Both the position numbers and the translations under genes were made by a program. A stretch of 64,000 nucleotides of DNA from Paracoccus sp. (in: a-proteobacteria). Lineage in GTDB: Bacteria > Pseudomonadota > Alphaproteobacteria > Rhodobacterales > Rhodobacteraceae. The number at the start of each line of letters is the position of its first letter. Within the stretch, counting starts at the first letter, position 1. The DNA lies in NCBI RefSeq assembly GCF_030538755.1, contig NZ_JAUNTJ010000009.1, positions 1-64,000 of the forward strand. The letters run 5' to 3'. Below, in pieces: positions 3,627 through 54,913 of this stretch. The notes beneath the pieces are model-generated. The model was not told the origin of the DNA, ran no database searches, and was given only the letters and a program-made list of their open reading frames with translations.

Positions 3627-3673
3627 AAAAATAAAAGCGGCGACGCCCGAGGGGGGAGGAAGGGCGCCGCCGC
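3627..3673 (-). terminator. intrinsic terminator formed by last array hairpin
   Basis: The 12-pair G+C-rich stem (3673-3662 with 3648-3637, one G-U) is directly followed on the minus strand by TTTTATTTTT (3636-3627). This is a strong Rho-independent terminator that would end the DUF1127-array transcript before rlmJ. Confidence 0.85.
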
Positions 3674-3809
3674 AATACGCTGGCCCAAAGGGAGGAGGAG
3701 GGGCCGCGTTAAAAGTGCAATGGCCCTTGGGAGGAGGACGGGCGCATTGCGATCACGGAAGGCCAGGGGAGGAGGAGAGGCCCGCCGAACTGTTTGCCGG
3801 TTTCCCGGC
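3637..3809 (-). repeat. array module 3 (promoter-distal)
   Basis: Third tandem module: small hairpin (arms 3809-3805 and 3800-3796) and four hairpins. The final one (3673-3637) has stem sequence similar to the perfect stem of module 2, but its loop lacks the middle T of the motif and it is followed by a T-tract. Confidence 0.7.
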
Positions 3810-3819
3810 GGAATTCCGG

Positions 3820-3990
3820 GCGGCGGTCCCCTGGGAGGAGGAGCGGGGACCGCCGCGGGTGATACCGGCCGGGAGGAGGAGGCCGTGTATCGGGTTGCAG
3901 CGCGCCCAAGGAGGAGGTGGGGCTGCGCCGCAGGAACGGAGGGCCAGGGGAGGAGGAAGGCCCGCCGATGTCGTTGCCGGTATGCCCGGC
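3820..3990 (-). repeat. array module 2
   Basis: Second tandem module: small hairpin (arms 3990-3986 and 3980-3976), then four loop-motif hairpins ending with a perfect 12-bp stem at 3856-3820. Its first main hairpin (3967-3937) and adjoining spacer are nearly identical in sequence to those of module 3 (3787-3756), which indicates segmental duplication. Confidence 0.7.
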
Positions 3991-3999
3991 GAAATCTCT

Positions 4000-4171
4000 G
4001 GCGACGGCCCCCTAGGGAGGAGGAAAGGGACCGTCGCCGATGCGTTTGCCCGAGGGAGGAGGCCGGGCGCACACGTTTTCGGTAACATCCCCAGGGAGGA
4101 GGAAGAGGCTGTTACCAAGACCCGGATCAGAGGGAGGAGGTCGATCCGGTATTCCATGCCGGCGAACCGGC
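4000..4171 (-). repeat. array module 1 (promoter-proximal)
   Basis: First of three tandem modules. In transcript order it holds a small hairpin with arms at 4171-4167 and 4162-4158, then four CCTCCTCCC-loop hairpins. The matching small hairpins of the next modules lie 182 and 362 bases further on, and the hairpin spacing pattern (about 40, 37, 43 and then 63 bases) recurs. Confidence 0.7.
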
Positions 4172-4201
4172 GGTCGCAAACCGGGCCTGTGGCCCCGCCG
4201 C

Positions 4202-4429
4202 TTAGTTCTGCTTGCCGTAGGCCGCTTCGTTCGCGATGTTTTTAATCATCGAACGATGGATGCCCAGATCTTCCAGATCGCGGTTGGTCAGCGCATTCAG
4301 CTCGCGCAGGGTCTGCCGGTAAACGGCGGCGCGGGCGCGGTTTTCCTGCATCCGCTCAATCGCGGTCATCAGACGCGCGCCGATGCCGTTCTGGCGGGCG
4401 CCGTTCTGGACGTGGTCGATAGCAGACAT
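4202..4429 (-). CDS. DUF1127 small RNA-binding-type protein (CcaF1-like)
   Basis: Small basic protein of 75 residues whose C-terminal part (RQTLRELNALTNRDLEDLG) is the DUF1127 signature. In R. sphaeroides the DUF1127 protein CcaF1 is encoded directly upstream of the CcsR sRNAs and has been described as RNA-binding, and the same gene order is seen here. I chose the ATG at 4429 because AAGGA lies 8 bases upstream of it. An ATG two codons earlier (4435) is only 2 bases from that site. A longer frame upstream has no family resemblance. The stop codon is 30 bases before the first array element. Confidence 0.88.
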   Translation of the reverse strand: MSAIDHVQNGARQNGIGARLMTAIERMQENRARAAVYRQTLRELNALTNRDLEDLGIHRSMIKNIANEAAYGKQN

Positions 4430-4528
4430 TTTCATATTCCTTACATTCTTTGCGTCGGGCGGGCCGTATTGCCCTTTCCGAACTGGCAGGGCGTCATGTT
4501 GTGCCCGTTGCTGCCTTCGAGACCAAAG

Positions 4529-4554
4529 ATGGGGGAAATGCTGCACTTGCACAA
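4529..4554 (-). promoter_or_regulatory. candidate RpoH-type promoter for DUF1127-sRNA transcript
   Basis: On the minus strand TTGTGC (4554-4549) is separated by 14 bases from CCCCAT (4534-4529), close to the heat-shock sigma pattern TTG...CCCCAT. It would give a leader of roughly 90 bases before the DUF1127 start. The R. sphaeroides ccaF1-CcsR locus is known to be driven by RpoHI/RpoHII. Assignment by pattern only. Confidence 0.4.
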
Positions 4555-4664
4555 TGGCGGGTTTGGTCACGCTGCCTTGCGGCAGATGCATAACTGATGC
4601 TGACCTATTTGTGACAAGGCCTCGCAAACTGACGCTCAAATTTGTGATGTGCGGGCTGTTATCG

Positions 4665-54785: not shown

Positions 54786-54886
54786 GGGGGCGTTAATCAA
54801 ATACCGCTTTACTCTCCTTAAGCGAGTAAATGCACATAATGCAGAGTGGGCGGCAGATCCACCTGTCAAAAAACACACGGGGAGGA

Positions 54887-54913
54887 GGGGCGCGGATCGA
54901 ACCGCGCCCCTTT
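54887..54913 (+). terminator. intrinsic terminator after XRE gene
   Basis: GGGGCGCGG-ATCGAA-CCGCGCCCC, a 9-bp perfect stem, followed by TTTCCCTTT. Immediately upstream the strand reads GGGGAGGA. Confidence 0.82.

Follow-up and report, generated by a model that had tools for sequence, protein, structure and literature searches.

A CIN1-type locus of Paracoccus sp. with twelve stem-loops behind a ccaF1-type DUF1127 gene

The window analyzed here, 64,000 nucleotides from the beginning of contig NZ_JAUNTJ010000009.1 of Paracoccus sp. (assembly GCF_030538755.1), contains on its minus strand a short DUF1127 gene followed by an array of twelve stem-loops. Judged by its sequence, this is a CIN1 locus, a known kind of locus in which a ccaF1-type gene is combined with cuckoo (CcsR) RNAs. 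The locus is real and conserved, and it is probably a functional RNA locus of this kind. As an explanation of the whole, we consider it quite probable that the gene and the array are co-transcribed from an RpoH-like promoter, that the transcript is cut in the linkers of the array, and that the exposed loops block Shine-Dalgarno sites of the GGAGGAG type. All features described below lie on the minus strand unless stated otherwise.

The stem-loops (H1 to H12) occupy positions 4149-3637, 3' of the DUF1127 gene. Folding a 36- to 44-nt segment around each motif gives the stem-loop as the minimum-energy structure, with the motif in the loop; a single fold of the entire 611-nt region keeps 11 of them, and H1 pairs otherwise. 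The core loop motif, CCUCCUCCC, is carried by ten loops, and CCTCCTCCC is present in ten of the twelve; the variant loops are CCTCCTCCT in H6 and CCTCCCCCC in H12. The whole assembly (3.01 Mb) contains 15 exact copies of CCTCCTCCC, 10 of which are within the array. When a 529-nt region was shuffled 200 times with dinucleotides preserved, at most 2 motifs (10 observed) and 3 hairpins (12 observed) appeared. The fold energy of the array region has a z-score of -8.0 against 100 shuffles, and after the 3' arms are swapped among the hairpins the mean energy is -9.8 instead of -17.1 kcal/mol. The folds and shuffles thus bear out a first-pass annotation of the same DNA, which had described twelve hairpins after a DUF1127 gene, ten with the motif in the loop and two with variants. 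It had placed them in 535 bp; the count is right, and the span from H1 to H12 is 513 bp.

The loop-to-loop distances fall into two classes, 25-30 and 53-55 nt, which split the array into 4+4+4. Block 1 (4000-4149) comprises H1 to H4 (4149-4122, 4116-4081, 4074-4042 and 4038-4000), identified by short-segment folds and with counterparts in the Paracoccus genomes G018 and G117. It is followed by linker 1 (3968-3999), a 32-nt gap of equal length in G018 that contains a small GC hairpin (3990-3976) and that is presumed, from the reported processing of CcsR RNAs, to be a cleavage region. Block 2 (3820-3967), likewise defined by folds, comprises H5 to H8 (3967-3937, 3932-3896, 3891-3861 and 3856-3820), and linker 2 (3788-3819), recognized by the spacing, contains another small GC hairpin (3809-3796) and is a second presumed cleavage region. 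Block 3 (3637-3787), backed by folds and by covariation on H10-H12, comprises H9 to H12 (3787-3756, 3750-3717, 3709-3677 and 3673-3637). Together with the T-rich tract TTTTATTTTT, H12 forms a probable intrinsic terminator (3627-3673); a T-rich tail comes after many homologous arrays, and several are without one. Beyond this tract lies a gene with the start MLSYQHAYHAGN, which we take to be rlmJ; this start or a close form of it was found within 700 nt of 72 of the 93 Paracoccus arrays tested.

Because of the 4+4+4 spacing, three RNAs of four hairpins each are likelier than twelve RNAs, and the earlier suggestion of many processed sRNAs fits less well. Note that the number of four hairpins per predicted RNA derives from the spacing in the sequence, which gives putative RNA ends. 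The cuckoo RNA family is described as having 2-4 hairpins per RNA (PMC4504443). The arms of the hairpins are 36-80% alike overall, with one pair at 94% (H5/H9); H6/H12 are 80% identical, and H4, H8 and H12 mutually 68-79%, so the stems are not "all different", as had been stated, where these near copies are concerned. Over all pairs, hairpins at the same place in their blocks average 64% arm identity vs 55% at other places, a modest difference. These sequence comparisons suggest that the array arose by duplication of a four-hairpin unit, followed by drift.

At the Rfam gathering thresholds, only a tRNA is matched in the window, and the array was matched by a permissive search. In this search, CcsR1 (RF02791) gives five array matches (40.4, 34.8, 34.3, 20.2 and 19.4 bits; best E-value 3.3e-8), all under its gathering threshold of 65.3, and ar14 (RF02344) gives three (46.5, 46.5 and 37.0 bits; best E-value 3.7e-7), all under 58.8. 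In Cereibacter johrii and L. azotoformans, which we take to be close relatives of R. sphaeroides, CcsR1 has four matches each: the first unit passes the gathering threshold, and the other six score 39.4-54.1 bits. The best unit here (40.4 bits; 3889-3821, in block 2) is therefore inside the range of the known sister units, and the others are weaker. By sequence, we assign the array to the cuckoo/CIN1 kind and to neither RF02791 nor RF02344. The features that mark cuckoo RNAs are present, namely a constant CCUCCUCCC loop on variable helices (exact in 10 of 12 loops) and an adjoining short DUF1127 gene (PF06568, E-value 5.9e-12), a gene often found beside cuckoo RNAs according to PMC10253847. 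The covariance-model search that the first-pass annotation had proposed as a check thus agrees, at sub-gathering scores in both models, with the membership it had suggested.

Among known systems, R. sphaeroides CcsR1-4 with ccaF1 (RSP_6037) is similar in that a DUF1127 gene is followed by hairpins with CCUCCUCCC loops and by linkers between blocks. The promoter block can be compared through C. johrii and L. azotoformans and is like theirs, whereas the blocks have four hairpins here and two in those species, that is, 12 hairpins versus 8. S. meliloti ar14/NfeR1 (RF02344) likewise combines identical CCUCCUCCC loops on several hairpins with stems that vary, and its silencing at start sites is described as redundant (PMC10746234); however, NfeR1 consists of three hairpins under its own sigma-70 promoter (PMC10746234, PMC7143759), whereas the twelve here come after an RpoH-like promoter and a DUF1127 gene. 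SmelA075 and SmelA099 of Rhizobiales, with three and four hairpins, the same loop and variable stems, are a further parallel, the four-hairpin form resembling one block here, but they are described as single RNAs, not as three blocks in tandem (PMC3927594). As for Paracoccus itself, the main text of the Paracoccus denitrificans sRNA paper mentions neither DUF1127 nor cuckoo RNAs (PMC5107571).

The array itself is ordinary for the genus. Among 96 Paracoccus loci, the numbers of loci with each hairpin count are: 0 hairpins, 2 loci; 2, 1; 4, 4; 5, 4; 6, 2; 8, 13; 9, 2; 10, 23; 11, 2; 12, 25 (the present locus included); 13, 1; 14, 14; 16, 2; and 20, 1. These are counts of loci rather than genomes, some genomes supplying more than one. 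Loci that failed a DUF1127 filter were left out, 7 of 103 from Paracoccus (L039-L141) and 8 of the 80 named ones (L142-L221). The hairpin counter makes small errors, such as one array scored as 13, and some arrays are cut at contig ends or by N. The same counter finds 2+2+2+2 hairpins in both C. johrii and L. azotoformans. This result acts as a positive control, since it fits four CcsR RNAs with the two stem-loops each that are described for RS0680a (PMC3927594). From this distribution, twelve hairpins are usual for the genus: 12 is the commonest count (25 of 96 loci), and 18 of the 96 loci exceed it. The proposed counting of hairpins in related genomes thus finds that the arrays recur, with 0-20 hairpins per Paracoccus locus, and the view of this array as an expanded family member is not supported.

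The nearest named loci are those of Paracoccus, and the longest array seen among the named relatives is that of Loktanella atrilutea (L209), with 23 hairpins in one unbroken array. Some Paracoccus have a second type of CIN1 copy (L049, L050, L071 and L097; similar in L069, L070 and L079), in which four hairpins begin 93 nt past the DUF1127 stop codon, or one hairpin is followed by four. This type has no gene with the MLSYQHAYHAGN start within 700 nt, and G003, G021 and G054 carry it off the contig of the main array. In G070, an eight-hairpin copy (L104) lies on a contig of 149,225 bases that matches the Paracoccus jeotgali plasmid record NZ_CP025584.1 in size, and another copy lies on the largest contig (L103). 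A search of plasmids returned two Paracoccus records and one Limimaricola record.

The putative promoter is located at 4526-4554 and is of the RpoH type, with TTG at -36 to -34, A at -12, T at -11 and T at -9, as judged from a conserved block and its spacing; the predicted start is near 4518. The upstream block consists of a palindrome, then ATTGTGCANNNGCAGCA and then CCATCTT, and recurs from Paracoccus to Cereibacter johrii. Its anchor, TTGTGCANNNGC, occurs in 138 of 168 loci, the other 30 being without it in the stretch searched. The first T of TTG and the A of CAT are 24 nt apart, a spacing that agrees with the positions described for RpoHI/RpoHII (TTG at -36 to -34, A at -12, T at -9; PMC3441632). 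An RpoHI/RpoHII promoter is reported for R. sphaeroides ccaF1 (PMC10253847, PMC3320616), and the maturation of CcsR RNAs in this organism is attributed to RNase E and CcaF1 (PMC10253847, PMC8625941). In the mechanism that we propose, this stress-type promoter would produce one transcript covering the DUF1127 gene and the twelve hairpins, and by analogy with R. sphaeroides the transcript would probably be cut in the two linkers into three RNAs of about 150 nt. Their loops, which expose CCUCCUCCC or a near variant, would pair with GGAGGAG-type Shine-Dalgarno sites and block translation. Many of the loops would be redundant, and their number would set the dose rather than the specificity.

As targets, this mechanism predicts periplasmic solute-binding proteins along with pdhA and some genes of sugar catabolism. 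The exact nine-base complement of the loop, GGGAGGAGG, occurs five times outside the array in this genome, and only the copy in front of iolC has a long ORF at start-codon distance. Because this site stands alone, the target search was moved to the seven-base site GGAGGAG. The pattern GGAGGAGN3-9ATG has 28 matches in this genome, leading to 24 distinct ORFs of at least 50 aa, of which 8 encode solute-binding proteins by Pfam (two DctP, Peripla_BP_4, three SBP_bac, NMT1_3 and TctC, the last two being counted as such). The others include PdhA (NCBIfam TIGR03182), IolC, a permease, an ABC ATPase, UxuA and protocatechuate dioxygenase. The control pattern was AAGGAGGN3-9ATG, another strong site with lower complementarity to the loops, and it yields solute-binding proteins in 0 of 25 cases vs 8 of 24 (Fisher p 0.0016); this control excludes four proteins found in both sets, PdhA included, and if they are kept it becomes 2 of 29 (p 0.03). 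In G053, the first 30 of 84 target sites and the first 30 of 70 control sites, without three sites inside the array and ORFs below 50 aa, give 5 of 24 vs 0 of 21 (p 0.051), nine target proteins and one control protein being checked by Pfam and the others by eye from 60 residues. Pooled over the two genomes, the figures are 13 of 48 vs 0 of 46 (p 1e-4). A PdhA-like E1 protein is in the G053 set too.

The enrichment concerns solute-binding proteins only; permease and ATPase genes of this genome are found in 2 of 24 vs 2 of 25 cases, each set having a single permease and a single ABC ATPase. Note that solute-binding genes may carry a GGAGGAG site for reasons of expression alone. In published work, CcsR1-4 are described as affecting the pyruvate dehydrogenase complex (PMC8307010, PMC8625941), and S. 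meliloti NfeR1, which has the same loop motif, as silencing ntrB through pairing at the start site, with most of its target candidates encoding ABC transport systems (PMC10746234). On contig 22 (L238), where iolC is located, the genes with the seven-base site include those for a sugar-binding protein, a permease and a thiamine-pyrophosphate enzyme, the last of which is taken for IolD. Within the window, an isolated GGGAGGAGG at 54880-54888 runs into a GC-rich inverted repeat and then T's; it is probably part of a terminator rather than a target site.

Alternatively, the array could be a sponge whose loops titrate GGAGG-containing RNAs or compete with the 3' end of 16S rRNA, so that translation would drop globally rather than at chosen targets. 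The core of the 16S tail, CCUCCU, is present in the loops, and the copy number is high and variable, as a sponge would allow. A search for the 16S 3' end pattern gave no match in this assembly, which is 86.8% complete. We consider a sponge unlikely, since several relatives keep three hairpins only, few for bulk titration, and the enrichment of GGAGGAG start sites in solute-binding genes suggests selectivity.

The DUF1127 gene (4202-4429) encodes a ccaF1-type protein of 75 aa that is 93% identical in G117 and G018, two close Paracoccus. Its stop codon is 52 nt before the trimmed H1, and in most Paracoccus loci this distance, as given by the hairpin counter, is 0-47 nt. Such closeness would suit hairpins that are mainly a 3' UTR device of the DUF1127 mRNA, acting in its stability or as binding sites through which the protein regulates itself, and CcaF1 is reported to bind RNA and to affect CcsR maturation (PMC10253847). 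This reading is slightly more doubtful than the sponge. Against it, at least seven Paracoccus genomes (G002, G013, G019, G020, G041, G048 and G062) have the promoter and then an array of 3 to 9 hairpins with no DUF1127 gene between them: the 27-100 nt from the promoter TTG to the array are too short for such a gene. In a survey of 125 Paracoccus genomes, 110 have a DUF1127 match at an E-value of 1e-3 or better, some of these matches being weak, and none was found in these seven. Hence, the array is not merely the tail of a DUF1127 mRNA. Also against such a device, 899 of the 983 hairpins detected in Paracoccus keep CCTCCTCCC, although the detector itself needs part of this motif. The arrays directly after a promoter, without a DUF1127 gene, are at loci L258, L260, L264, L265, L280, L285 and L027; G060 (L263) looks the same and has a weak DUF1127 match on another contig. 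Promoter-and-array loci without an intervening DUF1127 gene may be new.

Our preferred reading, a locus of structured cuckoo RNAs, is also supported by covariation. The alignment covered H10-H12 in 69 of 82 distinct Paracoccus sequences, 13 being left out, three of them irregular; the three nearest genomes were aligned as well, and of this the part with the promoter and the gene was used. Compensatory changes across Paracoccus support these stems: in 12 of the 25 pairs there are changes on both sides with pairing kept (95 cells in total), a level reached in none of 500 shuffles, which ignore relatedness, and sliding the partner by 1-3 columns lowers the paired fraction from 99.5% to 33-59%. 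The loop is the most conserved part of the array. The stem of H11 (3677-3709) is near-invariant in Paracoccus, unlike the preceding stem, the commonest pair being kept by 65-69 of 69 sequences at each of its eight pairs, which indicates that some stems are constrained in sequence too. Variable stems under a constant loop, on which the first-pass annotation had based its case for selection, are thus found inside the array, but between species some stems, H11 above all, hardly vary. Its other concern, that relatives might lack these hairpins, is answered by the covariation and by recurrence across Paracoccus and other genera. Both strands have long ORFs running through the region, but a tandem repeat rich in C or a piece of an ORF is a very improbable account of the array in view of the covariation, the non-chance folding, the differing arms of neighbors and the presence of such arrays in other genera after a gene and promoter of this kind. 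Because of the covariation we rejected these ORFs as coding.

The palindrome of the upstream block, TGCCGCAAGGCAGCG (4570-4584), lies upstream of the -35 element, agrees with TGCTGCN3GCAGCA at 10 of 12 fixed positions and is a candidate operator of the PhaR type. The promoter scan covered 61 Paracoccus genomes (vs 125 in the DUF1127 survey). A palindrome with at least 10 of 12 positions occurs at this place in 95 of 106 unique promoters vs 24 of 2760 background 40-mers. The exact 15-mer is found before a phasin gene beside phaR in this genome and in three of five others searched, the phasin being confirmed by Pfam in the two genomes tried, and this resemblance suggests control by PhaR. It is also found before a gene for a MaoC-type dehydratase in this genome (by Pfam) and in G015 (by likeness). 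Eight genomes have 3 to 10 exact sites each, and only four of these genomes (G005, G015, G063 and G114) have one at the CIN1 promoter. When 20 further palindrome sites were read by eye, only two, those before the MaoC-type dehydratase genes, preceded a storage-type gene and some were inside other genes, which weakens the motif as proof of PhaR.

Published PhaR sites include TGCRNYGCASMA (PMC6201568), and S. meliloti PhaR is described as recognizing a palindrome with the core YGCRNYGCR, two copies of which flank the -35 element at phaP1 and at phaP2 (PMC12542648). The usual ATG center of the palindrome here differs from the published sites, TGCRNYGCASMA included, at one position, and if the TTGTGCANNNGCAGCA block is read as a PhaR site, its spacer is one base longer than in the published motif. 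Another RNA with an anti-Shine-Dalgarno motif, MmgR, is described as being repressed by PhaR (AniA) (PMC7143759, PMC12542648). Based on the sites in the sequence, the carbon-storage sensor PhaR may control the cuckoo array, which would possibly be new. A wider proposal, which we put forward tentatively and consider less likely than its opposite, is that PhaR controls the array across Rhodobacteraceae, so that when PHB fills the cell PhaR leaves the promoter and the loops shut down the translation of genes for carbon uptake and pyruvate entry, in some Paracoccus without a DUF1127 protein.

If this is true, it would constitute a feedback loop from storage granules to nutrient import through RNA. 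A widespread RNA regulator would gain, if the PhaR link holds, a named input, carbon storage, beside the stress signals already reported. In addition, the loci form a comparative set: within one genus they carry between 0 and 20 hairpins each, some species have no DUF1127 partner before the array, and this natural variation makes the dose, the redundancy and the need for the protein testable.
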